DNA from: Haloferax marinisediminis
GTDB lineage: Archaea > Halobacteriota > Halobacteria > Halobacteriales > Haloferacaceae
Direction of reading: 5' to 3'
Assembly: GCF_009674585.1 (NCBI RefSeq)
Contig: NZ_WKJP01000001.1
Coordinates: forward strand, 62,001 to 126,000
DNA: 64,000 nt
Shown: positions 47,238 to 62,955 of the stretch, piece by piece
Layout: every line of letters begins with the position of its first letter
Numbering within the stretch: position 1 is the first letter of the stretch
Notes under the pieces: generated by a model
Databases searched by the model: none
Told to the model about the DNA's origin: nothing
Seen by the model: the letters and a program-made list of their open reading frames with translations, nothing else
Program-made: the position numbers and the translations under genes

Positions 47238-48125
47238 ATGACCATCGACGTGAGCAAACAGGTGTACGAATCGGAGGCGACAGGGTGGCAACGAGGACTC
47301 TACGACGACCTCAAGACCACGTTTCGGGCACCGGTCGTCAACTGGTTCTTCCGGGCGCTCATGGCGAACCAACCCGAGTTCCTCCGATACGCGTGGGGGC
47401 AACTCAAACCGGCGTTCGAGACGCGGTCGTTCGCCCGTTACGAGGTCGAATACCGTGACACGATTCTCGCTGTTCTCGAAGACGACCGAGCGCTCCCGCA
47501 CTACACTCCGAGTGCCGTCGGCATCTCGCCGGCAGAGTTCCGAGAAGTGCGCGGACAACTCGTCACGCTTGACACTGTCGTCCCCCGACTCGCGTTCGTC
47601 TTCGAGGTGCTCGACCGAGCACTCTCCGAAGACCCGGTCGGCGAGTCACCCGCCGAGGACTGGGAGGCGACCGCGCCATTCCCCGAGCTGAACCGCGAGA
47701 CCGGTCGGTCGGTCACCATGATTCCGTACGAGGACGTCCCCGACTCACTCGCAGCGACGGTGGGGTCCATTCAGGACGTCCACGGGTTCGACTCCGGACT
47801 CCCGACCATCTATCGGAGTCTCGCACAGTGGCCGTCACTCCTCGACACGATGTGGGCCGACCTCGAATCGGTCCTCGAATCGACGGCGTTCGAAGCGGCC
47901 TGTGTCGCCTCGTGGTCGAACGCCGCAGAACAGGTGTCGTCGCTCCCGTACACGCCGCGTCTCGCGCCGGACGACCTCCGCGACGTTGGGTTGGCAGACG
48001 ACGACATCTCGGCGCTGCAGGACCTCGCCGAGCAGTTCCGACACGGTCCTGTCGAGACGGTTCTCCCTGCGGTCACGCTCTACGCCGCCACGCTCGGGGC
48101 GACCGGGCCGCGACGACTTGGGTGA
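47238..48125 (+). CDS. DehI-like halocarboxylic acid dehydrogenase family protein
   Basis: A 295-aa protein starting MTIDVSKQVYESEATGWQRG. It resembles the DehI family (group I 2-haloacid dehalogenase fold) as annotated in many haloarchaea. FRAPVVNWFFRALMANQPEF and LRYAWGQLKPAFETRSF are helical segments, and the second half repeats this (VGSIQDVHGFDSGLPTIYRS, LAQWPSLLDTMWADLES), consistent with the pseudo-duplicated DehI fold. Dehalogenase activity is not proven and haloarchaeal members are numerous, so another role is likely. The ATG at 47238 is chosen. Confidence 0.75.
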   Translation: MTIDVSKQVYESEATGWQRGLYDDLKTTFRAPVVNWFFRALMANQPEFLRYAWGQLKPAFETRSFARYEVEYRDTILAVLEDDRALPHYTPSAVGISPAEFREVRGQLVTLDTVVPRLAFVFEVLDRALSEDPVGESPAEDWEATAPFPELNRETGRSVTMIPYEDVPDSLAATVGSIQDVHGFDSGLPTIYRSLAQWPSLLDTMWADLESVLESTAFEAACVASWSNAAEQVSSLPYTPRLAPDDLRDVGLADDDISALQDLAEQFRHGPVETVLPAVTLYAATLGATGPRRLG

Positions 48126-48218
48126 CACGAGCATCGGTGTGTGCTGAAACACCCAAACAGGAGCCACGGCTTATTTGACACATTTATTTAATATCTTACA
48201 CTGACTATCAGGTTTGTA

Positions 48219-49637
48219 ATGAATAGTCGAGCGGACACCACTGACGTCGCGTCCGAATCATCCCCAACAACGACGCGACGGCGACTACTCGCGGCCAGTG
48301 GTAGTCTCGGCGTCGCTGGGCTGAGTGGCTGCCTCGGGCGGGTCGCACGCGCGACGACCAACACCGGGGCGGCCCCAGCACTCTACTACACCGGCGATGC
48401 TTCCTCGGAAGACACAGTCACCGATGGTGATGGGACCGCTCGGGTCTACGGAGTTGGACACGCGGATATCCGCCACATTCCATCGACGGTCAGCGGTGGG
48501 TCTGGGCTTCTCTCTGCCGAAATCGAACTCGACGGGTGGGCCACGAGCACCTCCACGAAAGCACAGGACTACAACTCCTCTCGGTCGAACAAACCGAGGA
48601 CCAGACGAGGAGACGACGATTCCGACGACGATGGACTACCGGACGGTAAGGAGGAACTGTACGAGTATCTCGATGGAGAGCCGACTATCGGTGAGCGGTT
48701 CACCGTCTCTCTCCCCGACGCACGCCTCCCGGGCAATCGCGGTGCAGTCGCTGACGAACTCACACCACAGCGACTGTTGGATTACTTCACCGGCGAGCCA
48801 AACAGCGACCGATGTGCGGAGAACGCGAACAGTCGAGCACTTCTGGTTCACCGGGATATCGCGTGCCGTAATCTCCTCTCTGCGACGCTCGAAGAAGACA
48901 AATCGAAGACGCGAAAAGTCGCCGTGTTCACCACCTCCGGTGGGGTCGTCGTCACGGGCGCGACACCCGAAGCCAAGCAAGCTGAACGGATGGTACTCGT
49001 CTCGGAAGATGGGACCGCGAGCACACTCGAGACGCTCGATTCGTGGGGGGACGAACGTGTCACCGGTGCTGTTGGCGTGACGCCGACGCTCGTCTGCCCG
49101 ATGTCTGTGACGCCAGCGGACTGTCCGAGTCCGATGCCTGCGCTGTTCTACGTGCGGCGGATTCGCCACGACGACCAGTACCTCTACACCGGTGGCTGGG
49201 TGGTCGACGACGGCGCACTCTACGAAAACACGGCGACCCTGCTGGTCGGCGAAGCCCCCAACGAAGTCATCGGACTCACTCCGTCGGACATCGAGCGCAG
49301 TGCGACGGAACTCCGGTCGATTATCAGGAGAAGACGGCGAGGCAGGAGCGCCAAAGACGCGACTGTGCTGTTGAGTAGGTACGACGCAGAGGCAGACACT
49401 CTCCCAGATGGCGTACACTCTGTTTGCGGTACAGACGGTGGAGGCTACTGGAGAGTACAGTCCAAGGAAGCGCTTGCCAGCGGAACCGGCGACTGTGACG
49501 ACACCGACCCCAGCCCCACACCAACGAGTGTCGTGACGGCGCTGGATGCCCCGATACTCCATCTCGTCGAAACGAGTGAGCTCTCGAACGAGGTGAAGTT
49601 CAAAGCAGGAGCAGAGCTGTCGAAAGCGGTCAACTGA
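48219..49637 (+). CDS. Tat-exported lipoprotein, uncharacterised
   Basis: A 472-aa secreted protein. The N terminus carries a twin-arginine signal (TTRRRLLAASGSLGVAG) followed by the lipobox LSGC at about residue 38, typical of haloarchaeal Tat lipoproteins. A low-complexity acidic segment near residue 130 (DDDSDDDGLPDG, calcium-binding-like) is followed by a domain of unknown type with paired cysteines (SVTPADCPSPM, GVHSVCGTDG, SGTGDCDD). A T/A-rich TATA region (around 48183-48195) lies just upstream. The function is unknown. Confidence 0.75.
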   Translation: MNSRADTTDVASESSPTTTRRRLLAASGSLGVAGLSGCLGRVARATTNTGAAPALYYTGDASSEDTVTDGDGTARVYGVGHADIRHIPSTVSGGSGLLSAEIELDGWATSTSTKAQDYNSSRSNKPRTRRGDDDSDDDGLPDGKEELYEYLDGEPTIGERFTVSLPDARLPGNRGAVADELTPQRLLDYFTGEPNSDRCAENANSRALLVHRDIACRNLLSATLEEDKSKTRKVAVFTTSGGVVVTGATPEAKQAERMVLVSEDGTASTLETLDSWGDERVTGAVGVTPTLVCPMSVTPADCPSPMPALFYVRRIRHDDQYLYTGGWVVDDGALYENTATLLVGEAPNEVIGLTPSDIERSATELRSIIRRRRRGRSAKDATVLLSRYDAEADTLPDGVHSVCGTDGGGYWRVQSKEALASGTGDCDDTDPSPTPTSVVTALDAPILHLVETSELSNEVKFKAGAELSKAVN

Positions 49638-49650
49638 GCGTTGCACCGTG

Positions 49651-49656
49651 AAAAAA
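49651..49656 (-). terminator. T-run terminator of the VOC gene
   Basis: A6 on the plus strand is T6 on the minus strand, about 18 nt downstream of the VOC stop codon, between the convergent lipoprotein and VOC genes. Confidence 0.45.
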
Positions 49657-49673
49657 GGCGGGGTCGATATCTC

Positions 49674-50174
49674 TCAGGGATACTGTCTGTCAGGCTCAGG
49701 AATCGCTTCGAGGTTCGTCGCCGTCTCGAAGATGACACCGTTCATCTGGTCAGCCGTATCAAAGTACCAGTACGGAACCTCGTCGTAGACACCGCTCTGG
49801 AGGACGGGCATGCCGTTCTCCTCGAACGTCTCGACCACCGCTTCGGTGTCCTCGAACGCGAAGCACGCGACGTGGTGGAGGCCCTCGCCGTGTTTGTCCA
49901 GATGCTCGGTGTAGATGCTCTCTCCCTCCTGCGGTTCGATGAGTTCTATCATCGTGTCGCCCGCGTAGGTGAGCGCCAGCGTCATCGAATAGTCGTGTTC
50001 TTCTCCTTTGTAGGTCGTGTCGTGGAGCGTCGGTGAAGCGAACTCGTAGACGTCCCACGGGCCAAGTCCGAGGATAGCTCCAAAACGGTCCATCCCGTCT
50101 TCGATGTCTTCGACCACGAACGCTATCTGTGTAATCTCCGGAATCTCGATTCCGAGGTCAGGTACGTCGACCAT
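49674..50174 (-). CDS. VOC-superfamily (glyoxalase-like) protein
   Basis: A 166-aa protein with two betaalphabetabetabeta modules of the vicinal-oxygen-chelate fold. The first metal-site region is ITQIAFVVEDIEDGMDRFGA, the second is GLHHVACFAFEDTEAVVETF, and the metal-binding Glu is in MIELIEPQEGES and GVIFETATN. It resembles methylmalonyl-CoA epimerase and 4-hydroxyphenylpyruvate-dioxygenase-like members. Its substrate is unknown. The start MVDVPDLG at 50174 is chosen over 50207. Confidence 0.8.
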   Translation of the reverse strand: MVDVPDLGIEIPEITQIAFVVEDIEDGMDRFGAILGLGPWDVYEFASPTLHDTTYKGEEHDYSMTLALTYAGDTMIELIEPQEGESIYTEHLDKHGEGLHHVACFAFEDTEAVVETFEENGMPVLQSGVYDEVPYWYFDTADQMNGVIFETATNLEAIPEPDRQYP

Positions 50175-50357
50175 GAAGGGTAATCGTCCTCGACCACAAT
50201 ATATCAATTCTAAGACATTCTTGACAGTCAGGTATGACGACTCGTTGAACGAACGGGTGGGCGAGTGCCACCACGGGAAGTGCGGGTGATTCGTCTCCCA
50301 CGGACGAGGACCACCACGTCACTGTTCAGAGACGGAGCGCCGACGACGTCGTGTCTC

Positions 50358-51209
50358 TCACTCGTCCAGTGGCGCTCGAACCGTCAAGACAGGCACTGGT
50401 GACGTTCGGAAGAGTTTCTCTGCGACGTTACCGAGCAGATACCGGTCGATTCCTGTTCTCCCGTGGGTTCCGACGACGACGACGTCGACGTCGTGGTCGT
50501 CGATGAACGCGGTGATAGCTCGGTGAACCGAGGTCTCGGATTCGACAGTCCCCGTCACAGAGTCGACACCTGCATCGCGAGCGAGTTCGACCGCGTCGTG
50601 GACCACGTCGTGTGCGTTCGAATCGATGAGATTGATTTCGATATCCGCAGTGATGTCAGCGCCGAGCAAACTGGTGTCGACGACCGACAGCACGTGGAGG
50701 TCGGCGTCGTCGGTTCTCGCGAGGTCGACGCCTAGGATAAGCGCAGCATCCGCACACTCGCTCCCGTCTGTTGGAACGAGGACGGTTCGGTAGGGAGCAG
50801 CCAGTTCGTCGACGCTGTCCGGCCGAACCGTGAGCACGGGAACGTCCGAGAGGCGGAGAACACGGTCTGTCGTACTCCCGAGGAGCAACCGCCGGAGCCC
50901 TCGCCGGCCGTGCGTCGGCATGGCGATGAGGCCGATATCGTGTGTGGTAGCGTAGTCGAGAATTTCGAGGTACGGTTCGCCGTTGACGACTGCAGACACC
51001 GCGTCGACTCCCGCCTTGTCTGCGCGCTCTACCGCGTCTTCAAGGAGTTCGTCGACGTCGTTTGTTTTCGGACGACGGCGTGGCTCTTCGGGGGAGACGT
51101 GGACGATATGGAGGGTTGCGTCGTGTCTACTCGCCAGCTGACAGACGTGGTCGAACACGCGGTCTGCGCCGGCGCTCCAGTCCGTGGGAAACAGAATCGA
51201 CTGAATCAT
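50358..51209 (-). CDS. Tandem universal stress protein (two UspA domains)
   Basis: A 283-aa protein with two Usp domains. Each has the nucleotide-binding loop GxxGxxxxxxGS/N: MPTHGRRGLRRLLLGSTTD in the first (about residues 102-120) and VGTHGRTGIDRYLLGNVAEK in the second. Both start with the usual first strand (MIQSILFPTDWSAGAD, RTVLVPTDGSECAD). ATP binding is expected for such loops. The ATG at 51209 is the family start. It is the last clearly chromosomal gene before the conjugative region. Confidence 0.9.
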   Translation of the reverse strand: MIQSILFPTDWSAGADRVFDHVCQLASRHDATLHIVHVSPEEPRRRPKTNDVDELLEDAVERADKAGVDAVSAVVNGEPYLEILDYATTHDIGLIAMPTHGRRGLRRLLLGSTTDRVLRLSDVPVLTVRPDSVDELAAPYRTVLVPTDGSECADAALILGVDLARTDDADLHVLSVVDTSLLGADITADIEINLIDSNAHDVVHDAVELARDAGVDSVTGTVESETSVHRAITAFIDDHDVDVVVVGTHGRTGIDRYLLGNVAEKLFRTSPVPVLTVRAPLDE

Positions 51210-51236
51210 CGCTACGAATACGCGCCGAGATGACAA

Positions 51237-51607: not shown

Positions 51608-52048
51608 ATGACGCATACAAACTCTGCAGTCGTTGGAGGTACAGATCCATCTTCTGTCCCCACCACACCAGCAGCAACTCGCTCGATTACGCACCGAGTC
51701 GTCACGCACGGCTTCATCGGACTTGTCGTCCTCAGTTTCATCGCGGTTGAGCCCGCACTTGCCCAAGAGAGTATCGTCTGCGAAGCAGAGCGTCTTCCGA
51801 CGATGATTTCAGGCTTCTTTCAACTCACGACAGGGATTGGAATTGTCGGCTTAGTCGTCGTTTGGCAAGCGAATTCGCTTACAGAGATGTTTACACTGAG
51901 CCCAGACCAGCGAGAAAAGATCAAGCGACAAAAGCGAACCGCGCTTAAATCGACGCTGACGTTAGTTCTGCTTGGTCCGCTCTACACGGTTGCCGGCAGT
52001 ACAATGGGGCTTCCACTTGCCTCCTGTGTCGACCTCATTCCTGTGTGA
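51608..52048 (+). CDS. Two-helix membrane protein, VirB2-like pilin candidate
   Basis: A 146-aa protein. A Thr/Ser-rich N terminus precedes a hydrophobic stretch ending in a likely cleavage site (FIGLVVLSFIAVEPALAQES). Two more helices follow (GFFQLTTGIGIVGLVVVWQA and STLTLVLLGPLYTVAGSTMG) separated by a basic loop (SPDQREKIKRQKR). Signal plus two helices with a short positive loop is the shape of VirB2/TrbC pilins, but no sequence motif proves it. It is the first gene of the conjugation-like operon. An in-frame GTG at 51554 could add 18 residues. Confidence 0.55.
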   Translation: MTHTNSAVVGGTDPSSVPTTPAATRSITHRVVTHGFIGLVVLSFIAVEPALAQESIVCEAERLPTMISGFFQLTTGIGIVGLVVVWQANSLTEMFTLSPDQREKIKRQKRTALKSTLTLVLLGPLYTVAGSTMGLPLASCVDLIPV

Positions 52049-52057
52049 CCCGCGGGC

Positions 52058-53725
52058 GTGACTCGCCACACCAACTACGCTGTTGTATTGGTCACTGTAT
52101 TCTGGGCTGTCTGCGTGATGGCCGGGACAGTTGGAGCAACAGCGCCAGAGAATACGACCCCGACACCACCGCAATCGAACGCCACACTGTGGTCTGACGA
52201 TGCCGATTCGTGCATGAATACGACAGACTACATGGCCACATACGACGTCGACGCTGTGCCGTCGACTGTTGACCTGCTTTCGACCTGCACGGACGTCGTA
52301 TATGACAGTCCCCCCACAACTGGACAGGCAAACGCTCACCTCATCAGCGGCATCAAACCGGGTGACAAAACGACGTCCATCGCTCCGCACACGGCGACAG
52401 TGAACTCGAGCGGGCGACTTCGCGATGTTCATGCGTCGCTTGTTGCTGTCTCACCATCGACGCTCGTACATCAGACAGAATCGCGTACCGTTCGCTATGC
52501 CCGACCCAACGGGACGATATACGGGTTCGTCGACTACCGACTCGATACAAAAACCGTTGAGAAGGAGAACACGACCATTTCGTGGTCTGTTCTCTCTCAC
52601 GGAGTCGACGCTGTCGAACTCGTCACTGAGAACCGGACTCTCGGTTCGACGACTGGAACACAGACGCCACGATTCGAGTATCAGAATCTTGGTCTGGGTC
52701 GGACACAGGTTGTGTTGCACGCGACGGTAACTGCACAACTCAAGAAGACCGTCACTGTCGAGACGAACGAATCCACGGAAACGACGAGCGAAGTGATCTC
52801 AGAGCGGATTACAGTCAGCGAGTCGATTCCTGTCCACATCACAGAGCCGGCAGCGAGTGTGGATGTCGTTGCATATCCGGACGGTACAGACGAAGTCCTC
52901 CTTTCAACCCCTACTCCGTGGAGTCAATACACTGTTGAGGGGCACCCAGACCTCCAAGTCCAGAATGTCTGGGAGTTCTATACCGCTGGTGACCCAGCCT
53001 GGGAGACGCTCGTCTCTCGGACGTCGACAACGACCGACCGAGTCCACACTCGCCACCGACCGCTCGTTGTCCATGCCGTCCCAACGACTGGCCATCCACA
53101 GGTCGACGAACAGTGGGGTTCACTCTCGATTCAGGACGTTTCTGGACAGTGGGTTGACTCGGCCCCCACTGTCGATTCAAACGTCACTGTCTCTCCAACG
53201 GCGTATCAGCGACCAGTACGCCTTCGCCTCCGCCATCCGTCGACCTCGGCAGTTCGACTGACTGGTATCGTTTCTGGAGGGGAGACGACGATCAAACTCC
53301 CGCAAACTCCGCCCGTCGCACAGCAGCCTGCACTGTCGATTAGGGTTGTGTCGCAATCGACGACCGAGGCGACGTTGCGTGTCACGCTTCGTAACAACAT
53401 GACCGGGACACCGCTTGCTGTTGGGCCGACCACATCGAATCACAGTGCGGGCGTACTCACAGTGGGGGAGCAGCCTGTCGCCCTCAATTCATCCGGGAGT
53501 GCGACCGTTGTTGTGACGACCCCTGGCGTCTACACAGCTGTCTTCGAGCCAACACCGTGGGTGCCTGGTCAACAAGCGTACACATCAGCCGACGCAACGG
53601 TTGCATGGCACCCACTCATCTCGACACCTGGACTCACAGCAGTGGGGTGGGACATTTTCCAGCTTGCAATTCCGATCGGACTCGTCCTTTTTGCAGGGCG
53701 GCACCTCGGCGCATTCCTCTCATGA
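52058..53725 (+). CDS. Large exported surface protein of the conjugation cluster
   Basis: A 555-aa protein with an N-terminal signal (AVVLVTVFWAVCVMAGTVGA), a long Thr/Ser/Val-rich beta-type exoplasmic region with many Asn-X-Ser/Thr sequons (for example ENTTP, NSSG, ENTTI, NHSAG), and one C-terminal helix (IFQLAIPIGLVLFAGRH). It lies between the pilin-like and channel-like genes, so it may be a pilus or mating-surface component. No known domain is recognised. GTG at 52058 starts 10 nt after the previous stop. It overlaps the next small frame by 4 nt. Confidence 0.65.
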   Translation: MTRHTNYAVVLVTVFWAVCVMAGTVGATAPENTTPTPPQSNATLWSDDADSCMNTTDYMATYDVDAVPSTVDLLSTCTDVVYDSPPTTGQANAHLISGIKPGDKTTSIAPHTATVNSSGRLRDVHASLVAVSPSTLVHQTESRTVRYARPNGTIYGFVDYRLDTKTVEKENTTISWSVLSHGVDAVELVTENRTLGSTTGTQTPRFEYQNLGLGRTQVVLHATVTAQLKKTVTVETNESTETTSEVISERITVSESIPVHITEPAASVDVVAYPDGTDEVLLSTPTPWSQYTVEGHPDLQVQNVWEFYTAGDPAWETLVSRTSTTTDRVHTRHRPLVVHAVPTTGHPQVDEQWGSLSIQDVSGQWVDSAPTVDSNVTVSPTAYQRPVRLRLRHPSTSAVRLTGIVSGGETTIKLPQTPPVAQQPALSIRVVSQSTTEATLRVTLRNNMTGTPLAVGPTTSNHSAGVLTVGEQPVALNSSGSATVVVTTPGVYTAVFEPTPWVPGQQAYTSADATVAWHPLISTPGLTAVGWDIFQLAIPIGLVLFAGRHLGAFLS

Positions 53726-53847
53726 GTATGAACTTCAATCACAGACCACCAGATCCACAGTCGGCACGACTAACGCACAGCTTCAGACCTCGATGCGAGC
53801 CTCACCCCGCCAGACGAGTTGCAGGGTCTCGGAGGTACGATGGCTGA
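53722..53847 (+). CDS. Candidate 41-aa coupled ORF
   Basis: This frame starts with ATGA overlapping the surface-protein stop (MSMNFNHRPPDPQSARLTHS) and ends with a TGA overlapping the start of the VirB6-like gene. Overlaps at both ends suggest translational coupling and a real gene. The product is basic and without hydrophobic helix. It could instead be only a coupling frame that carries ribosomes to the next gene. No homologue is known to me. Confidence 0.4.
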   Translation: MSMNFNHRPPDPQSARLTHSFRPRCEPHPARRVAGSRRYDG

Positions 53848-54958
53848 ACTCTCACTTGCAGAGCTTGGGAGTGAATGGTTCAACGATATCCTTACTGCAG
53901 TCACCGGGTGGCTCCAACAGGGCATCGCTGAGGGGTACAACCAACTGACGCAAGCAGCATTCGGAACACCAACCCCTGAGACGGGAAGTGTCCTGGGTGT
54001 TGGGACCCCCGTCAACGAACCGTGGGTCTCACTTCACGACACACTCGTGGCAGGCGAAACCACATTCCTTGCACTGTTGATTCTGGTCATCGCTGTCCAA
54101 GCGCGGAATACCATCCGCGTGTTCAATATCGGAAATCCACTGACCGCACGAGCAACCTCACAATCTGCATGGATTGGCGGTGCATTCATCGTTCTGTGGT
54201 ACTGGATTGCAGCGGCCTCGCTCACCCTTGTTGATGGCCTCACCATTCTCCTATTGCCACCAGTCGAGAGCGTGGGAACACTTGTCGCTGATCTGCTCAT
54301 CGTGACGATTACAAACCCCATTCTTGCCTTTGGATTGGGTCTCGTCGGTGCAGTCGCCATGTGGGTCTTACAGGCGTTGTTCATTGTTCGTGACCTGCTT
54401 ATCTTCGGCTTCGTCTACGCCATGCCGTTTGGCCTCGCAATCGCGTATTCGAACATTCCCGTCGTCTCTCGCCTTGCAGCCTCGCTGTGTCGTCGCTTCA
54501 TCCCACTGCTCGTGTTTCCGCTTCCGGTTGCACTGCTGTTTGGGGCGTACGACCTCGTCCTCACATCCGCGCTCGACGTTGGGCTACTCCCTGTCTCTGC
54601 ATTTGCACGCTACCTCGTTGGAGTCTCGCTCCCTGTGATTTCGGTGTACGTCGTCTGGCGACTCTTCACCGATGTCGCACCGAAGACGACTCGTGTTGTC
54701 CGCCGGACCGCTGGCACCGCTGCAACCGTTGGAACGGTCGTCGGTGCCGGTGTCGTCGGTGGGCCAGCAAGCGCGACGACTGTCGCGAAGGTCGGTGCTC
54801 GTGCCGCAGCGATCCGCGGTGTCGAACACCGGATTGGAGATTCCAGTCAGGGCTCACCACAGTCCAGCACTCGCAATGATAACATCGCCTCCGATGCCCA
54901 CGGCCAACGCGGCATCCCCTCGTACCGCCGAACTGAGAACGATCCTGGATATTACTGA
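53840..54958 (+). CDS. VirB6/TrbL-like polytopic channel protein
   Basis: A 372-aa protein with about six to eight hydrophobic helices (for example TFLALLILVIAVQARN, IGGAFIVLWYWIAAASL, LLIFGFVYAMPFGLAI, LLVFPLPVALLFGAYDL) and a hydrophilic tail with basic residues (VVRRTAGTAATVG). VirB6/TrbL proteins form the inner-membrane channel of type IV secretion. The shape and position between a pilin-like gene and VirB4 support this, not a strict motif. GGAGG lies 5 nt before the ATG at 53840. The stop overlaps the next start (TGATG). Confidence 0.65.
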   Translation: MAELSLAELGSEWFNDILTAVTGWLQQGIAEGYNQLTQAAFGTPTPETGSVLGVGTPVNEPWVSLHDTLVAGETTFLALLILVIAVQARNTIRVFNIGNPLTARATSQSAWIGGAFIVLWYWIAAASLTLVDGLTILLLPPVESVGTLVADLLIVTITNPILAFGLGLVGAVAMWVLQALFIVRDLLIFGFVYAMPFGLAIAYSNIPVVSRLAASLCRRFIPLLVFPLPVALLFGAYDLVLTSALDVGLLPVSAFARYLVGVSLPVISVYVVWRLFTDVAPKTTRVVRRTAGTAATVGTVVGAGVVGGPASATTVAKVGARAAAIRGVEHRIGDSSQGSPQSSTRNDNIASDAHGQRGIPSYRRTENDPGYY

Positions 54959-56061
54959 TGTCAAACGATACACCTGCAGAACGACGACTCATGAAGACAC
55001 TCGGTGAAGAGGCTCGGATTCCCATCCTCAACATCGACGAAGGAGACCTGTACCCCATTATTGGCTTTCCAATCGCAGGGGTGTTCATTGCGGGATTGGT
55101 CGGCATCGACTCACTGTTGTGGCCACTCGGTCTCGGTGGGCTCGTCAGTGGCCTGTTGACCGTCTACGCAACGCCCTCACATCGAACGACGACTGAGTGG
55201 CTGTCCGACCTCAGTCGCCATTATTTCGCCCGGCCATCGACAACGAATGCATACTCTTCAGATGTGAGTGCCGCTGGGAACGATTCGGCGTCACATGTCG
55301 GCGACTACAGTCCGTTCACACCAGATGAACGAACGCAAGACCTCACCCACGTCGAACACGCGTGGCCCGGTGCGGGAGCGCTCGAACGCACTGATGGCAC
55401 GATGGTCGGCATGGTCGAGCTCATCCCGTCGAATATGGATTTTGCGATGTCGGGCGATTGGGCACAACGACAGGCCATTGCCGAAACGTTCGCGAATAAC
55501 GAACTTGACTTCCCACTCTCACTCCACGCGACGACGAAACCGTTCCCAGTCGACCGACTCGTCGAGCGTATCGATGAGCGACTCACTGACGAAGATGTCC
55601 AGCAAAACCCTGCGTTCGAGAGACTACTGGCTGAATATCGAGAGGCACGTCCGAAGGAGATGGCTGGAACCCAGGAGATTCGGTACTACCTCGGTGTCGA
55701 AGTCTCTCCGTTCGAAGTCTATCACGACTCTACCGACGAGCAGACGCCACTCGAACGACTGACGAAGATTCCATTCCTCGGCCTCGTTATCACACCGTTC
55801 GTCACGCGGCGTGAGCGACTTACCGAGGGTGAAGTTCGCGCTCGATTGTTCGATGCGGTCGAAGCGCGCTGTCGGACCCTCGAAACAGAGTTCATCGGAA
55901 AACAACATGGCTGGGCCGCTCGTCGGCTCCCAACGACTGAGCAGTTCCTGCTCTCGGTCGAATTCTGGAATGGCTCGGGCCACGAGTATGGGGCTCCAAA
56001 TGAGAGTGTTCGGTCAGGTCCAGTACTTCGACAGAGCACACGAGAGGAACGAGATGCATAA
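54958..56061 (+). CDS. PrgI-like / VirB4-N-like membrane protein
   Basis: A 367-aa protein with two hydrophobic helices near the N terminus (IIGFPIAGVFIAGLVGI and LWPLGLGGLVSGLLTVY, about residues 35-70), like PrgI/VirB3, then a long soluble part (MVGMVELIPSNMDFAMSG, DFPLSLHATTKPFPVDRLVE) similar in style to the N-terminal domain of VirB4. No Walker motif is present. Fusion or splitting of VirB3 and VirB4 is common in conjugation systems, and the ATPase gene follows with an 8-nt overlap. It probably docks the ATPase to the membrane. Confidence 0.6.
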   Translation: MSNDTPAERRLMKTLGEEARIPILNIDEGDLYPIIGFPIAGVFIAGLVGIDSLLWPLGLGGLVSGLLTVYATPSHRTTTEWLSDLSRHYFARPSTTNAYSSDVSAAGNDSASHVGDYSPFTPDERTQDLTHVEHAWPGAGALERTDGTMVGMVELIPSNMDFAMSGDWAQRQAIAETFANNELDFPLSLHATTKPFPVDRLVERIDERLTDEDVQQNPAFERLLAEYREARPKEMAGTQEIRYYLGVEVSPFEVYHDSTDEQTPLERLTKIPFLGLVITPFVTRRERLTEGEVRARLFDAVEARCRTLETEFIGKQHGWAARRLPTTEQFLLSVEFWNGSGHEYGAPNESVRSGPVLRQSTREERDA

Positions 56062-58102
56062 TCTCTCCGCGTTACAGGTGGGTGAAGGGTTCACGCCAGT
56101 GCCACTCACCGAGGTGGTGTTCGCGATTGCACTTGGGTTCCTCGCTGGTGTCATCGTTGTTAGTGTCTGGGCACGAAGAAGCAGCTCTCCCGAGTCATTC
56201 GACCCAACCGCAGTACTCGATCCATCCACGCTGGAAGCCGCATCCAACGAGATGTCCATCCTCGAAGCGGCCGACTCACTCCACGCTGATACTGTCGCAC
56301 CGGCCGCGATTGAGTGGGACACTCGCGCCGCTCGTGTTGGTGAGCAATGGACGACGACGCTCTACCTCGCGTCATATCCAGACTATCCCAAAGACGGCTA
56401 TCTGAACGAGCTGTTCAACCTCACCGATATCGAGTTCGACTGCACGATCCGACTTCATCCCAAGAACCAGACGCGTGCTCGTGATGAGCTCCAAACGCTC
56501 GCAGACAACTTGCAGGTTGATGCGAAGCTCGAGCAGACCGTTCGTGGGTCGTATCTCCAAACGCGCGCTGATGAAGCAACTGCGACGTACACTGCAGTCG
56601 AGGAAGGTCAGCATGTCTTCTCTCAAGCGATGTTTCTGACGGTTCGTGCGGAGACACGCGACGAGCTCCGTGAAGCTGTTCGAACGGTCAAACGACGACT
56701 CCGAGACCATCCTGCGAATCTCACACCGAAGACGGCAATTTGCGCGCAGGACCGCGGCCTCCAAGCAGCATCACCCCTCGGACCAAACCCGTTCGACGAG
56801 GACGTAGTTGCCCTCGGTGGCGCTGTGGGTGCATTGTTGGCGTCGCCACACAACCCAACGATTCTCGAACCAGATGGTGTTGAAGTCGGGATTCATCGAC
56901 ACAACGATAGCCCAGTGGTGGTCGACGCATTCGCTCGTGAGAACGGCTACGCGATGTTCACCGTCGGTGACCCTGGCTCTGGGAAGTCTTTCGGTGCGAA
57001 GCAGAACTTCATCCGATCGATTTCGAATTCGAACGACCGGATTGGGATCATTCTTGAACCACTCAATAACTGGACTGGCGTTGCCGAGGCACTCAACGGC
57101 CACCGGATTACTGTTGGTGGGAGTATGGGGCTGAACCCACTCGAAATCAAACCGATGCCAGCGCGCGTCCAACAGACACTCGGCGATGACGCGAGTCCGT
57201 TCAATGAGAAGATAGACAGCGTTCTGAGCTTCCTCACCAATTTCTTCTCACTTCGGGGAATCCACCTTGGCGACCGTCGAACCACACTCGAACTCGCGAT
57301 TAGCGAGGCCTATCGTCGGAACGGAATTACTGATGACATCGCCACCCACAGCAACGAGAGTCCGACGATGCGGGATGTCCTCGACGTACTGACTGCACTG
57401 TCTGAAACGCCTGAGGAATTCGTCGTCCGGACATCTGTCGAAACCGAGAAGCTCGAAGCCGATGCTGCCTGGCTCATCGACCAGCTTCGCCCCTTCGCTG
57501 AAGGAGGCCGATACGAGAATCTCGGTCGGCAGACCGACTTCGAGATCCGCGACGAGAACGTCATCTATCTCGACCTCGGCCAGCAGGAAGGAACCGTCGG
57601 TGGGAGTACGAGTCTGCTTATGCAGTTGCTCATCTCTGTTGTCTACGAACGAGCGAAAGAGACCGACAAAGAGGTTGTCTTCGTCATCGACGAGGCTCGC
57701 TACATCATGCAAGACACAGAGAGCCTGTCGTTCCTCGAGACGGTGTTCCGCCATCATCGGCATCACGACCTCTCGGTTCGACTCGTTACCCAGACCGTCG
57801 ACGAGTTCTTCCAGCACCCTGAATCAGAAGCGATTCTTGACCAGTGTGCTATCAAGCAGTTCCACCGTCTCGACGGCATGGACGAACAGTGGGCGAATGA
57901 GTTCGGACTGAACCACGCCCAGATGCGGTTCGTTCAAGATGCCGTTCCTGGGTCCGACCGACTCGGCTACTCACAGGCACTCGTCGGCCTCGATGGCGAC
58001 TGGCGCGGTATCGAAGTGCGAGCGATGCCGTACGAGAAGGAGGTCATCGACTTCGACCCGAGTGATAGCAATCGTACACAGAACTCACTCATGACTAACT
58101 GA
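56054..58102 (+). CDS. VirB4-family conjugation ATPase
   Basis: A 682-aa motor ATPase of the HerA/FtsK-like VirB4 group, which energises assembly of the type IV secretion channel. A membrane helix at about residues 15-37 (EVVFAIALGFLAGVIVVSVW) is followed by an N-terminal domain. Walker A is VGDPGSGKSFGAKQ (about 308-321) and Walker B is VVFVIDEARYIM. The arginine-finger region HHRHHDLSVRLVTQTVDEF is typical. The ATG at 56054 lies 8 nt inside the preceding gene. The open frame reaches 55811 but overlaps that gene. This is the anchor gene for calling a conjugative element. Confidence 0.88.
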   Translation: MHNLSALQVGEGFTPVPLTEVVFAIALGFLAGVIVVSVWARRSSSPESFDPTAVLDPSTLEAASNEMSILEAADSLHADTVAPAAIEWDTRAARVGEQWTTTLYLASYPDYPKDGYLNELFNLTDIEFDCTIRLHPKNQTRARDELQTLADNLQVDAKLEQTVRGSYLQTRADEATATYTAVEEGQHVFSQAMFLTVRAETRDELREAVRTVKRRLRDHPANLTPKTAICAQDRGLQAASPLGPNPFDEDVVALGGAVGALLASPHNPTILEPDGVEVGIHRHNDSPVVVDAFARENGYAMFTVGDPGSGKSFGAKQNFIRSISNSNDRIGIILEPLNNWTGVAEALNGHRITVGGSMGLNPLEIKPMPARVQQTLGDDASPFNEKIDSVLSFLTNFFSLRGIHLGDRRTTLELAISEAYRRNGITDDIATHSNESPTMRDVLDVLTALSETPEEFVVRTSVETEKLEADAAWLIDQLRPFAEGGRYENLGRQTDFEIRDENVIYLDLGQQEGTVGGSTSLLMQLLISVVYERAKETDKEVVFVIDEARYIMQDTESLSFLETVFRHHRHHDLSVRLVTQTVDEFFQHPESEAILDQCAIKQFHRLDGMDEQWANEFGLNHAQMRFVQDAVPGSDRLGYSQALVGLDGDWRGIEVRAMPYEKEVIDFDPSDSNRTQNSLMTN

Positions 58103-58141
58103 GCAAATAGAGGTAACTCCCTCGCAGTCTACTACTCAGAT

Positions 58142-59569
58142 ATGACTGCGTCTCTCCGGACGGTTGTTGTTGTCGTCCTCGTCCTTTTCGCGGGTTGTAC
58201 CGGTGGTGGGTCGCTCGATGTGGGCGAGTCACCTGGTCAACCAACGACTGCAACAGAGGCAACAGCAGCGCAGACCACGACTGCGGCCGCATCTCCTAAC
58301 GGAACGCTCGAGGTCCACTTCATTAACGTCGGGCAATCGGTCAGTACGCTCCTCGTCGCACCGAATGGTGAGACGATGCTCATCGACTCTGGTGATTTCC
58401 GTGACGATGGTGAGCACGTCCTCGCGTATCTCCAGGCCCACGATATCCAGCGGTTGGACTACTTGGTGACCTCGCACGCTGACGCAGACCACATCGGTGG
58501 AAACGCAGCCATCATCGAGTATTACGAGACACAGGCGAATGGTGTGGGTGCAATCTACGACCCCGGTATCGCATCCACCTCACAGACCTACGCTGCATAC
58601 CTCGATGCCGTCGAAGAACACGACGTCCCACTGTACCGAACACAAGCCGGTGACCAGATTTCGATGGGGCTGGTGACGGCAACAGTGCTGTCTCCGCCTG
58701 AAGGCTACCTTGCGAGTGAAGACAGAAACGAGAACAGCATTGTTCTGATGACGCAGTTCGGGTCGACACGGTTCTTATTCACAGGTGATGCCGAACACGA
58801 AGCTGAAGAGTACCTTATCGACACGTACGGTTCGAATCTGCAAGCGACGGTTTTGAAGACCGGCCACCACGGCTCGAAAGGGAGTACAAGCGAGGAGTTC
58901 CTTCAGGCTGTCCAGCCCAAGGTCGCGGTTGTTTCGAGCGACTACGACTCACAGTACGGCCACCCGAATGAGGAGACGCTCGAACGATTGGATGCACAGT
59001 CAATACCGACGTACTGGACCGCAACACACGGTACGATTGTCTTTGCGAGTAACGGCGATCAAGTGAGAATCAGCACGCAGCAAGCGGCACCGACGCGCCC
59101 AATAGAACTCCGTGACGGAACTGCAATTGAACCTGGGACGGAGCCTGACGTGACTGTTCGAACCGAAATCACGGCGGGTGGGAGTCTGACGACTCTCACG
59201 CCGGTTGCGACTGATGGTGGAACAGACACGACGGACGCTTCGCTTGCTGTTGTGGAAGTCCATGCAGATGCAGCTGGGTCCGATACTGAGAATCTGAACG
59301 ACGAGTACATTGTCTTCAAGAATACCGGAAGCGAATCACTCGACCTCTCGGGATGGACAATCTCCGATGCATCTGGTCGGACGTACACCGTCCCTGATGG
59401 CACGACACTGGCTGCGGGCGCAACCATCACACTTCACACCGGGTCTGGAGCCGACACGTCGACTGATCTCTACTGGGGCTCAGGTTCTGCTGTCTGGAAC
59501 AATGATGGCGATACTATCACCGTACTGAATAATACCGGTGCAACCGTACTTGAGGAGACGTACGCATGA
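58142..59569 (+). CDS. Lipoprotein metallo-beta-lactamase with C-terminal lamin-tail domain
   Basis: A 475-aa exported protein. The signal ends in the lipobox LFAGC, so it is probably anchored outside. Residues about 55-310 form a ComEC/Rec2-type metallo-beta-lactamase domain with the metal motif TSHADADHIGG, then TGDAEHEAE and KTGHHGSKGSTSEEF. Residues about 365-475 form a lamin-tail domain (EYIVFKNTGSESLDLSGWTI), often linked to extracellular nucleases. It lies 39 bp after virB4. It may cut DNA at the cell surface during transfer or uptake, which is inference. Confidence 0.85.
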   Translation: MTASLRTVVVVVLVLFAGCTGGGSLDVGESPGQPTTATEATAAQTTTAAASPNGTLEVHFINVGQSVSTLLVAPNGETMLIDSGDFRDDGEHVLAYLQAHDIQRLDYLVTSHADADHIGGNAAIIEYYETQANGVGAIYDPGIASTSQTYAAYLDAVEEHDVPLYRTQAGDQISMGLVTATVLSPPEGYLASEDRNENSIVLMTQFGSTRFLFTGDAEHEAEEYLIDTYGSNLQATVLKTGHHGSKGSTSEEFLQAVQPKVAVVSSDYDSQYGHPNEETLERLDAQSIPTYWTATHGTIVFASNGDQVRISTQQAAPTRPIELRDGTAIEPGTEPDVTVRTEITAGGSLTTLTPVATDGGTDTTDASLAVVEVHADAAGSDTENLNDEYIVFKNTGSESLDLSGWTISDASGRTYTVPDGTTLAAGATITLHTGSGADTSTDLYWGSGSAVWNNDGDTITVLNNTGATVLEETYA

Positions 59570-59850
59570 TTCCAGACGGGACCTACACCGCGACAGTCGA
59601 CCGCTTCGAAGACGACCTGGCAGTCTTACTCGTCGAAGAAGACGGCCGCGATATCGACCAGCTCGTTGTCGACCGCGACGACTTGCCGTGGCGTGCAAGA
59701 AAACAAAATTCAGTCCTCACAGTCACCGTCTCAGATGGGGAGTACAAGAACGGGACGTACAAGCCAGACGAGACAGAAGAACGAACCGAAGCCGCTCAGT
59801 CACGGTTTGACCGACTCTCGCGTCGGCCACCACAAGACGACGAGTCGTAA
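59566..59850 (+). CDS. DUF3006 family protein
   Basis: A 94-aa protein with the DUF3006 pattern MIPDGTYTATVDRFEDDLAV and LPWRARKQNSVLTVTVSDGE. DUF3006 proteins are small beta-barrels usually encoded next to ComEC-like metallo-beta-lactamase genes, as here with an ATGA overlap. The function is unknown; a partner role is likely. Confidence 0.82.
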   Translation: MIPDGTYTATVDRFEDDLAVLLVEEDGRDIDQLVVDRDDLPWRARKQNSVLTVTVSDGEYKNGTYKPDETEERTEAAQSRFDRLSRRPPQDDES

Positions 59851-59868: not shown

Positions 59869-60798
59869 TCACACCCGCTCAGTGAGTTCGTAATACCTCG
59901 CTCTGAGTGTTGGGACCGTTACGTCTGCCGTTGTCGCGAACTCCGCTTGGGTCTGCTTCCCGCCGTGTTGTTTTGTCGCGAGATACAGACAAGCCGCTGC
60001 CACACCCATGGGATTTCGTCCGTTCGTAATCCCATCGTCGTCAGCGAGTTCTGCGAGTTCGTACGCACGTGCTTGGATCGCAGATGAGACGCCGCAGTCC
60101 GATGCAAGCCGTGGAACGGCCGTCCGTGCAGTCACAATCTGTGCGTCGATTCCCAGTTCGCTGTTGAGGACACGATACCCCGTTCGAACCTGGATGACGG
60201 TGCACCGAGCGACGTTTGCAATTTCCGCTTGTCGGCGCGGGAGCCCACGCGCCCGGCACGTCGCATACAGACTTCCTGCAGCCATCATCTCGAGCGAACG
60301 TCCGCGAATGAGGTCCTGCTGTTGTGCCCGGCGGTACGTCTGACTCGCCTCTTCGACGACACTGTACGGGAGGTCGAGGGCACTTCCCATCCGTGCGATT
60401 TCTTGGAGGGCAGTCGCGAGGTTCCGCTCTGCTTTCGACCCAAACCGCGCACGGCGATGTTCACGGCGAAGTCGGTGAAGTTGTCGCTGCTTTTCTGACG
60501 ACACCCGCTGGCCGTTCGCATCACGATTGTAGCCGATTTCTGCAGAGACGCCGCGGTCGTGACGAGTGGGAGTGAGTCGGCCTCCAGTTCGTCGTGTTGG
60601 AACTGGGTCGTCATCGAACACGCGTGGGCCGTGGGTGTGGTCGATGTAGTAGTGGTCGACGATGAGCCCACAGGCTTCGCAACTGGTTTCGCCGCCGTCC
60701 GTTGCGAGCCTCCCGTCGCACTCCGGGCAGTCAGTGGCATCAATTGATTTCCCGCACGATTCGTCGAACGTTCGTTCGTAGATTTCTCTCAGTGACAT
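59869..60798 (-). CDS. tfb: Transcription initiation factor TFB carried by the mobile region
   Basis: A 309-aa TFB. The N-terminal zinc ribbon is CPECDGRLATDGGETSCEAC (about residues 24-44), followed by the B-reader/linker and two cyclin repeats (about 110-200 and 205-305). Repeat features include LGLPRRQAEIANVARCTVIQ-type helices (split by family numbering) and GRNPMGVAAACLYLATKQHG. Haloarchaea have several TFBs that pair with TBPs to steer promoters. One on an integrated element may direct the element's own genes. The ATG at 60798 was chosen over 60834. It shares a promoter module with two neighbouring genes. Confidence 0.9.
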   Translation of the reverse strand: MSLREIYERTFDESCGKSIDATDCPECDGRLATDGGETSCEACGLIVDHYYIDHTHGPRVFDDDPVPTRRTGGRLTPTRHDRGVSAEIGYNRDANGQRVSSEKQRQLHRLRREHRRARFGSKAERNLATALQEIARMGSALDLPYSVVEEASQTYRRAQQQDLIRGRSLEMMAAGSLYATCRARGLPRRQAEIANVARCTVIQVRTGYRVLNSELGIDAQIVTARTAVPRLASDCGVSSAIQARAYELAELADDDGITNGRNPMGVAAACLYLATKQHGGKQTQAEFATTADVTVPTLRARYYELTERV

Positions 60799-60882: not shown

Positions 60883-61116
60883 TTAGTTGTTGGTCGGCCT
60901 GCTCGCTATGCACACCGCGTCGAACGCATCCTTGGACGCGTGTTCCTGACGGCACTCCGTACACCGCCAGAATCGACGACGGTCATGGTCGAACGCTGCA
61001 AGGTCTGCGAGTGAGTCAGTAGTCGACGCTCGCCACTCGGTGACGACGACGAGTTCGTGACCCAGTTCAGTCCGCTCGACGATACTCCCGACCCGTTGGG
61101 TTGTGTCTGTACTCAT
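60883..61116 (-). CDS. Small CxxC protein, paralogue of the SWIM-protein N terminus
   Basis: A 77-aa protein. GHELVVVTEWRASTTD and RRRFWRCTECRQEHASKDAF with a later Cys match residues of the neighbouring 177-aa protein (GHDLVRITEW, RTRFWRCRKCGQERTKKSEF). It therefore seems to be a paralogue reduced to the N-terminal zinc-knuckle part. No known family is recognised. It sits between tfb and the SWIM gene on the same strand, each with its own copy of the promoter module. Confidence 0.65.
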   Translation of the reverse strand: MSTDTTQRVGSIVERTELGHELVVVTEWRASTTDSLADLAAFDHDRRRFWRCTECRQEHASKDAFDAVCIASRPTNN

Positions 61117-61184: not shown

Positions 61185-61718
61185 CTATGACCGAATTCGG
61201 AGTCTCGTATCCCGATCGCACGTCGCAAATCGCCCATTCGGTTGAGGGAGGAGACGCGTCCGAATTTCGAAGATGACACGTCGAATGTGCTTGCACTCAA
61301 CACCACGTTTCCGATGGTCTGGACACGAACACGTGCCCGCATGGACGTCAACTTTGTACGTCTTCCCGCTTGACGAAGCAGCCCTGTAAACGGGGCCGAC
61401 ATCACCGAACCGAACGTCCATCTCTTCGGTGAGTGCTTTCCACGTCCGTGATTCGTCGATGGAGTAGCCGCCATCGCTCAATAGTGTCTGACCGTCGGTG
61501 ACCGGACACGATTCACGGAACTCTGATTTTTTGGTCCGCTCTTGGCCACACTTTCGGCACCGCCAGAATCGCGTACGGTAGCCATTGAGGTCAGAAAGTT
61601 CGATATCGTAGTCGGTCGGTTCGCTGCCTGGCACCCATTCAGTGATGCGGACAAGGTCGTGACCGGTGTTCAGGGCTATGGGTAACCGCTGTCGTTCGTC
61701 GTCGGTTGAGACAGTCAT
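61185..61718 (-). CDS. SWIM zinc-finger protein
   Basis: A 177-aa protein. The N-terminal half has a zinc knuckle (FWRCRKCGQERTKKSEFRES with a later Cys). The C-terminal half is a SWIM finger: YKVDVHAGTCSCPDHRKRGV then ECKHIRRV (CxC...CxH pattern). SWIM fingers bind DNA or proteins and occur in MULE transposases and Sws1-type recombination proteins. A single-domain SWIM protein on an element may regulate or assist transfer, which is inference. It shares its N-terminal part with the 77-aa neighbour. Confidence 0.75.
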   Translation of the reverse strand: MTVSTDDERQRLPIALNTGHDLVRITEWVPGSEPTDYDIELSDLNGYRTRFWRCRKCGQERTKKSEFRESCPVTDGQTLLSDGGYSIDESRTWKALTEEMDVRFGDVGPVYRAASSSGKTYKVDVHAGTCSCPDHRKRGVECKHIRRVIFEIRTRLLPQPNGRFATCDRDTRLRIRS

Positions 61719-61859: not shown

Positions 61860-62028
61860 GAGCAGATGTTACGACTGGTATCTCTGATTTCCGTCGACCC
61901 CCCGGCCATCCACTGATGCATCGCGAACAGCGTCTCGATTACCAGCAGATTCGTACTCAAACCGCAACGCACCAGCGCCTGATGCACGCATCAACTCGGC
62001 ACTCCCCTACACGACGCGCCTCCCACCG

Positions 62029-62955
62029 ATGGTCGCGTACGATCCTGAAGCACATGCGGTCGTGTGCGACGAGTGTTCGACGCGATATGACCCTGCGCTC
62101 CCAGGTATCCGAAATGCCATCGAGTGCTGTCACAGTCTCGATGCTGTCGACCGCGACGATATCCCAATCTCGTATCTCCCGCTCAAACTCTCGGCAGTCG
62201 AACGCGGGAGTAGTGCGTTCACCGACGCACAGCTCCGCTTCCTTCAAGCAGTCTACTCAGCACACCAGCGCCGGTTCGACCCCGAGTTCGAGTACGACCT
62301 CATGTACGACAGTATGGTTCGCCTCCAGGAGTACACGGGCGTTTCACCCAAGGAGGTTCGCGAGCTCATCGATGGCGAGTCGCTCGCCCTCGACTGTACG
62401 TACCCACACAAACTCTACACTGTGACGCCGAAGGGGCGCCGTGCGATTGCGGTCCGCCATCGCGAGGGAGTCGCCCATGGCCATGGCCGTGGTGATATGA
62501 GTGAGTCGAGTCTGCACGTCGTTATGGTGGAACTCGGTCGACGGTATCTCGAACAAGCGTTTGTTGAGAATGACGAGTCAACAGCCGTCGAGGCCGTCTC
62601 CTACTTCGAACCCGACGACTCCCGTTCGCGTCTCGATGCCGTCTGTCTAGACGAGAATGGAAACATCGTCGTCACGCTCGAAGCCGAGCGAGCGAATCAC
62701 GATATTCTGACGGGGGTGCCCGAAGACTACGATAAGATGGCTGCGTGCGACCCCGAAGCCGCTGTGTGGGTCGTCAAGAACCGGAGTGACGCACACGAAG
62801 TCCTTCGTGCATTGAACGAACCGAACGAAGGCCCGCCGCGCGTAGAGAAGACGTATAGTACGAACTCACCCCCATCGACGTTCCAGATTTCCCAGCCTGG
62901 GTTTACGGAGATGCACACGCTGCAGGAACTCAGGGATTCGACGCTAAGTGAGTGA
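62029..62955 (+). CDS. Element-associated protein with possible wHTH and nuclease-like C-terminal domain
   Basis: A 308-aa protein. N-terminal cysteines (VVCDECSTRYDPALPG) may bind zinc. The middle has a winged-helix-like stretch (SPKEVRELIDGESLALDCTY, KLYTVTPKGRRAIA). The C-terminal half contains HVVMVELGRRYLEQAF, then RLDAVCLDENGNIVVTLEAE, where D and ExE resemble a PD-(D/E)xK or replication-relaxation fold, but no firm Lys is identified. Such proteins recur in haloarchaeal mobile elements. Its role is unknown. It is divergent from the SWIM gene. Confidence 0.6.
   Translation: MVAYDPEAHAVVCDECSTRYDPALPGIRNAIECCHSLDAVDRDDIPISYLPLKLSAVERGSSAFTDAQLRFLQAVYSAHQRRFDPEFEYDLMYDSMVRLQEYTGVSPKEVRELIDGESLALDCTYPHKLYTVTPKGRRAIAVRHREGVAHGHGRGDMSESSLHVVMVELGRRYLEQAFVENDESTAVEAVSYFEPDDSRSRLDAVCLDENGNIVVTLEAERANHDILTGVPEDYDKMAACDPEAAVWVVKNRSDAHEVLRALNEPNEGPPRVEKTYSTNSPPSTFQISQPGFTEMHTLQELRDSTLSE

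Follow-up and report, generated by a model that had tools for sequence, protein, structure and literature searches.

Haloferax exchanges DNA by a mating process, and to our knowledge the machinery of this process is not yet resolved. The available part of the H. volcanii genome paper put forward VirB4/D4 genes as a candidate (PMC2841640). Here we describe a transfer-type locus in a 64,000-nucleotide stretch of Haloferax marinisediminis, hereafter called the window, which covers bases 62001-126000 of a 2.79-Mb contig in a genome of 3.49 Mb (six contigs, 95% complete). Seven plus-strand genes are found at positions 51608-59850 of the window, the first five of which (51608-58102) form the operon proper, and a prediction made from the sequence alone had read them as a conjugation-type operon followed by a lamin-tail lipoprotein. 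The question that the locus raises is whether it is a working transfer element, the remains of one, or a device that now belongs to the cell. We consider it likely that the window holds an internally deleted copy of a haloarchaeal integrated conjugative-type element, which is no longer mobile by itself and in which the pilus and channel operon is intact.

The pilus and channel operon

The operon is best anchored by its TrbL/VirB6-like channel and its VirB4 ATPase, both of which had been recognized in the original prediction. The strong match of the channel protein to TrbL_3 (Table 1) is the sole match to this family in the Haloferax genome. For VirB4, the P-loop domain of TraG is matched in Pfam above the cut-off (1.1e-6), the NCBIfam model of VirB4-like CD1110 is matched at 1.4e-39, yet under its curated cut-off, and the family profile finds the VirB4-like structure 4ag5 in the PDB (6.6e-10); the Walker A (GDPGSGKS) and Walker B (VVFVIDEA) motifs are both present. 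The same gene set recurs in other genomes. We compared 40 neighbourhoods, stretches of at most 20 kb from 37 genomes with TrbL_3, chosen on profile coverage, score and contig before any search for the lipoprotein was made. TrbL, the family of the 367-residue protein and VirB4 occur together in all 40 of them, and the pilin and the stalk protein in 39. Of the eight frames originally proposed seven stand as genes, and the eighth (ORF 53557-53847) has no recognisable counterpart in the neighbourhoods of relatives, including the stalk-TrbL junctions of H. gibbonsii and Haloferax sp. Q22. A gene of another family, encoding about 280 residues, lies between stalk and TrbL in 32 of the 40 neighbourhoods and is absent from the window operon. 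Two transfer operons of other genera (L122 and L125), each with an adjoining coupling protein, are likewise ones in which this gene was not detected, and its absence from the window therefore need not be a sign of decay.

The remaining three proteins are assigned with different degrees of confidence. The first is a putative VirB2/TrbC-like pilin, as suggested by its topology in the alignment and by low-scoring matches to TrbC/VirB2, obtained for 13 of the family's 27 members (E <= 1, best 0.0011); the window protein's own match to this model (0.081) falls below the cut-off. No pilin was matched when the family profile was compared with the PDB, and the structure model reached a predicted local distance difference test score (pLDDT) of 67.6. 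The 367-residue protein had been called PrgI/VirB4-N-like, a name for which its sequence gives no support. It matches nothing in Pfam or NCBIfam, the PrgI model matches none of 26 family members at E <= 1, and a profile comparison of the family with the VirB4 of the same operon gave nothing; the family is conserved and has no relative that could be recognised, and its likeness to VirB3/PrgI is one of gene position alone. The surface protein is indeed rich in N-glycosylation sites, its 555 residues holding 12 sequons against 3.8 +/- 1.7 in 2000 shuffled sequences. Its AlphaFold2 model, built with 28 sequences (mean pLDDT 84.7), shows a signal helix, then beta-sandwich domains in a run and a C-terminal membrane helix, and on this model the protein may be a membrane-anchored stalk or adhesin. 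Fold searches returned generic beta-sandwich matches, the top one being the C-terminal domain against invasin (Z 8.3, root-mean-square deviation 2.1, 76 residues), in a search for which, the tool notes, a Z of 7 to 8 is common among models that have no clear match. No solved structure in the PDB was matched by the family in sequence, and among the best 50 matches listed from the fold library the query-normalised TM-scores were 0.07-0.17, with flavivirus E at about 0.1. A reading of the stalk as a fusexin finds no support in these searches, with no PDB sequence matched and generic matches by fold.

The composition of the locus agrees with the original observation of a lower G/C at third codon positions (GC3), the mean of the seven genes being 0.60 against a median of 0.744 for the 53 called genes at 1-51300. 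No tRNA was found in the operon region.

The chromosomal site and the truncated putative coupling protein

The window element is inserted at a site that is common to several relatives, including H. gibbonsii ATCC 33959 (G112), Haloferax sp. Q22 (G155), H. denitrificans (G190) and H. massiliensis (G267). In H. gibbonsii, Q22 and the window's genome the site lies behind orthologues of one 598-residue gene (45373-47169 in the window). The order of the element in Haloferax is pilin, stalk, TrbL, 367-residue protein and VirB4, then lipoprotein, DUF3006, TFB and SWIM-type proteins, then the coupling protein and a primase-like protein. H. gibbonsii and Q22 carry the operon and the lipoprotein block in the same order as the window, and have the coupling protein further along, on the same contig in the former and on another contig in the latter, followed by the primase-like protein and a SnoaL-like gene. 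The SnoaL-like gene is also the right neighbour in the window's genome (L033:4967-5413), and H. gibbonsii has about 22 kb more genes before it. The H. gibbonsii element, of which the operon is the left part, occupies contig positions 307399-344335 (36.9 kb) and also holds a Cdc6-like gene and a weak OB-fold/SSB-like gene; its limits are the alignment breaks against G040, G189 and G244, where the same flanks enclose a different insert of about 7.5 kb. In G078 the flanks stand without operon, lipoprotein or coupling protein, and one gene of the right part is common. The space between the flanks is thus differently occupied in relatives, as seen in G078 against the window's genome and in G040, G189 and G244 against H. 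gibbonsii. The original prediction had left it that the element either extends further or is reduced, and both are the case, since in H. gibbonsii it reaches 36.9 kb and includes a coupling protein, in some relatives it has a recombinase, and in the window it is reduced.

Two parts are missing from the window copy, the ATPase part of the coupling protein and the recombinase. A protein of 1200-1450 residues, present in 17 of the 40 neighbourhoods, is our candidate for the coupling protein: its family has a conserved P-loop and matches TraD/VirD4 weakly, and the C-terminus of one member that was scanned is of the D5/primase type. No coupling protein had originally been seen in the window, and here the prediction has to be corrected, as a piece of one is present (Table 1). 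Over 305 residues this piece shares 81% identity with positions 892-1194 of the H. gibbonsii protein, which has 1197 residues. A family profile built from seven proteins, which matches 191 of the 292 genomes of the class used in all family surveys (TrbL_3, lipoprotein and coupling protein), gives one match in the Haloferax genome up to E 10, at window positions 61924-62943, spanning 891-1226 of the profile's 1231 positions. A comparison of the remnant with the first family representative gave nothing (E 0.095), the C-termini being different within the family. We then set the two surveys side by side, comparing the tables by eye and counting a coupling match anywhere in the genome, not necessarily beside the operon: among 97 genomes with TrbL_3 at E <= 1e-100, 95 also have a coupling match at E <= 4.4e-154, and the two exceptions are the window's genome (4.0e-97, C-terminal part only) and G205, a draft of about 140 contigs (9.3e-10).

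As for the recombinase, a tyrosine recombinase gene adjoins the left flank in Q22 (PF00589, 3.4e-10), 87-95% identical ones are found in H. massiliensis, H. denitrificans and G152, and a relative lies beside the pilin in G026. There is none at the site in H. gibbonsii or in the window's genome. A search limited to the PF00589 kind gave eight matches in the whole genome, the nearest of them 284 kb from the element's right end and all at least that far off, and in this respect the earlier report of no integrase stands.

Other relatives have lost more. All that H. massiliensis and H. denitrificans retain of the operon is a stretch of about 48 codons from the 3' end of virB4, which is interrupted by in-frame stops and directly precedes the lipoprotein gene (L105:10200-10343 and L106:9988-10131). 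These remnants are nearest to the VirB4 of H. gibbonsii and Q22 (65% over 48 residues), and they mark where the operon was deleted. In G152 the operon is absent, with no trace by tblastn, and the lipoprotein gene is split. In G245 (L077, L112) a lipoprotein-TFB-SWIM block close to that of the window (lipoprotein 83%, coupling C-terminus 86%) adjoins an operon that is much less similar (VirB4 68%), and because the block is close and its operon distant, elements seem to have exchanged operon and backbone.

Pilus assembly is powered by VirB4, and DNA is delivered to the channel by coupling proteins of the VirD4 type. In a working element VirB4 would drive the VirB2-like pilin and the TrbL channel to assemble, and the stalk would carry the machine through the surface layer or touch the partner cell. 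The coupling protein would feed DNA into the channel, and the recombinase would integrate the element. In the window copy the pilus and channel may still be built, and DNA would not be loaded unless another element supplied a coupling protein.

Table 1. Positions in the window of the genes of the transfer operon, its right-hand neighbours and the coupling protein remnant.
Feature	Positions	Strand	Characteristics
VirB2/TrbC-like pilin (putative)	51608..52048	+	signal peptide ending VEPALAQ, two hydrophobic helices, basic loop between them (alignment reading), two invariant Cys
Surface stalk protein (putative)	52058..53725	+	signal helix, beta-sandwich domain run, C-terminal membrane helix, 12 N-glycosylation sequons
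TrbL/VirB6-like channel	53840..54958	+	PF19590 TrbL_3, 3.5e-125
Conserved 367-residue protein	54958..56061	+	two hydrophobic N-terminal stretches (sequence reading); occupies VirB3/PrgI gene position
VirB4 ATPase	56054..58102	+	both Walker motifs intact; start uncertain
ComEC-like metallo-beta-lactamase (HADADH) and lamin-tail lipoprotein	58142..59569	+	architecture of haloarchaeal 'ComA'
DUF3006 partner of lipoprotein gene	59566..59850	+	Pfam 2.7e-15
TFB transcription factor	59869..60798	-	Pfam
Small paralogue of SWIM-type gene 61185..61718	60883..61116	-	
SWIM-type zinc-finger protein	61185..61718	-	weak, 0.0043, below cut-off
VirD4/TraD-like coupling protein remnant (putative)	62029..62955	+	C-terminal ~305 residues only; ATPase part missing

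To the right of the lipoprotein pair, the SWIM-type gene is found in the same place in H. gibbonsii, Q22, G245, H. denitrificans, H. massiliensis and G152. A sequence of about 125 bp just past the window (L033:57-184) is dispersed in 11 of 15 Haloferax genomes, and flanks the coupling protein on both sides in H. gibbonsii. The relatives of the alcohol-dehydrogenase-like gene at 63001-64014, so named from its sequence, lie at other chromosomal places in G078 and G245, and therefore the region has taken in other genes.

Selection, the lipoprotein and other explanations

Several observations weigh against an internally deleted, immobile copy. In the window's genome the left flanking gene is separated from the pilin by four further genes (47238-51236), and the gene that lies between the remnant and the primase (L033:2068-2736) occurs at the site in the operon-less G078 as well; the exact ends of the window copy are therefore not fixed. 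No terminal repeat of 12-16 bases, exact and on the same strand, was found in the window's genome, H. gibbonsii, Q22, H. massiliensis or H. denitrificans, which agrees with the lack of att sites reported originally, and no relaxase was seen among the 20 region proteins scanned by Pfam, a set that does not include every gene. The naming of the coupling protein draws on weak TraD/VirD4 matches below the cut-off together with the conserved P-loop and the gene context, and an assembly that is 95% complete leaves room for a coupling protein in the missing part. The ratio of nonsynonymous to synonymous substitutions (dN/dS) of the remnant against G245 is 0.081, within the range of intact-copy pairs (0.057-0.087); because this shows no relaxation, the truncation may be recent, or the C-terminal domain may still be constrained or used. 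Finally, the operon frames are all unbroken and their pairwise dN/dS in three genomes is low (VirB4 0.07-0.09, TrbL 0.08-0.14, 367-residue protein 0.07-0.14, stalk 0.24-0.26; pilin 0.12 in one pair), with the flanking gene at 0.32-0.42 in three genomes, and the operon is therefore unlike plain decay. A comparison of dS between operon and flanking gene, tried as a test of separate ancestry, was discarded since GC3 differs and dS is near saturation.

Another explanation is that the pilus and channel have been domesticated for importing DNA or mediating cell contact in the manner of the Ced and Ted systems of Crenarchaeota, the coupling protein being dispensed with and the lipoprotein perhaps trimming incoming DNA. 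We regard this as unlikely, and as the best of the other explanations. Pilin, channel and VirB4 are intact with low dN/dS, whereas the coupling ATPase is lost and no recombinase remains close by, the lipoprotein gene stands beside or near the operon in several genomes, and Ced/Ted are described in the available text as domesticated derivatives of type IV secretion systems (PMC9905601). However, loss of the coupling ATPase with the operon kept is clear in only one of the 97 genomes, the window's own, and H. massiliensis and H. denitrificans deleted the operon yet kept the lipoprotein block, and G152 has no operon and a split lipoprotein gene. Low dN/dS shows past selection on the operon, not selection after the truncation, as the times before and after it are inseparable by this measure. 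By analogy with Ced in Sulfolobales, the pilus and channel, possibly with the lipoprotein and the orphan coupling C-terminal domain, might even have been captured as a cellular machine for Haloferax DNA exchange, which we think slightly less probable still.

The wide occurrence of the lipoprotein family also argues against domestication. The metallo-beta-lactamase and lamin-tail domains proposed for it are confirmed by Pfam (LTD 4.6e-24, Lactamase_B 9.9e-22), as is the DUF3006 partner, and the lipobox is a loose one (FAGC) outside the strict pattern. The gene is beside the operon in G000, H. gibbonsii, Q22 and G245, 2.3 kb off in G262, on the opposite strand to the operon in G026 and upstream of it in G061 and G220, and such recurrence in several arrangements is suggestive. 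The family is nevertheless common without a channel, being present in 197 of the 292 genomes (E <= 1e-40), yet lipoprotein and DUF3006 occur in only five of the 40 channel neighbourhoods (a TFB relative in eight). The lipoprotein is therefore no component dedicated to the channel, and these counts, with the description of a like-built lipoprotein in haloarchaea (PMC5118699), give no support to the idea of a surface nuclease that is part of it. Nor was the polytopic channel fused to a metallo-beta-lactamase, which marks a competence ComEC, found in this 475-residue protein, which covers only positions 440-663 of 663 of ComEC/Rec2 at 141 bits against a cut-off of 190. The lipoprotein also matches a PHROGs family labelled tail protein (6.6e-138, positions 609-1076 of 1077), and viruses seem to use its domains too.

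There is little chance that the element is complete and still mobile, with another replicon of the strain providing in trans what it lacks; the operon genes are intact, and the six contigs hold eight PF00589 matches elsewhere, but the genome assembly contains no other coupling-family match even at E <= 10 and a single TrbL_3 match. That the operon encodes a protein-secretion system of the core chromosome with no relation to mobile elements, as its chromosomal position here and in H. gibbonsii and the same neighbours in several species could suggest, and as the original prediction would have had it if homologues always sat in the core chromosome without transfer genes, is the least credible explanation and largely refuted by a patchy, plasmid-linked distribution, with TrbL_3 in 143 of the 292 genomes (142 above the cut-off), 161 plasmid records carrying a VirB4 relative, other inserts at the site in G040, G189 and G244 and no operon in G078. 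Of these plasmid records 160 are labelled non-mobilizable by MOB-suite in PLSDB, and because of this the common plasmid typing tools probably miss haloarchaeal transfer systems. A contig filed under a metagenome-assembled genome of the PVC group of bacteria (L133) carries a partial operon of typical haloarchaeal kind (VirB4 69%) and is probably misplaced.

The object in the window is real and well anchored, but it is ordinary, a haloarchaeal transfer element of a known kind in a decayed state. The interest is in the variant series: one site in one culturable genus offers the operon with a recombinase, with a coupling protein, without the coupling ATPase, and deleted, making the role of each part of one transfer element testable, and the same site shows that the lamin-tail lipoprotein is not dedicated to the channel.

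Comparison with known transfer systems

Euryarchaeal conjugation through VirB4- and VirD4-like proteins is described for the Thermococcus plasmid pT33-3, and in the available part of that account no relaxase is recognised in it or in other archaeal conjugative plasmids (PMC12857230); the window has a fuller pilin/TrbL operon but no VirD4 ATPase. Ced/Ted share counterparts of VirB4, VirB6 and, putatively, VirB2 with the window operon, whereas the window VirB4 matches the NCBIfam CedB model at only 0.017 and no stalk protein is mentioned for Ced/Ted in the available text (PMC9905601). The lipoprotein has the same architecture, matched by description and not by sequence, as ComA of Halobacterium NRC-1 and Hlac_1867, lipoproteins with metallo-beta-lactamase and lamin-tail domains according to the available account, and differs in being paired with DUF3006 and adjoining a transfer operon (PMC5118699). 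Integrated mobile elements of haloarchaea that carry fsx1 are insertions of more than 50 kb with XerC/D, HerA, VirB4 and TraG/VirD4 in the part of the paper available (PMC9259645); the stalk family of the window has no sequence match to a solved structure, and by fold it gives generic beta-sandwich matches. An example of the haloarchaeal plasmid and integrated VirB4/TrbL_3 systems is that of H. volcanii, where 53 kb holding XerC/D and VirB4/D4 are described as a 'possible DNA secretion system' (PMC2841640). The window copy differs from it in having neither recombinase nor coupling ATPase, and, by description and not by sequence, it is alike in being a lower-GC chromosomal insert with VirB4, whose relatives add a VirD4-like protein and a recombinase.

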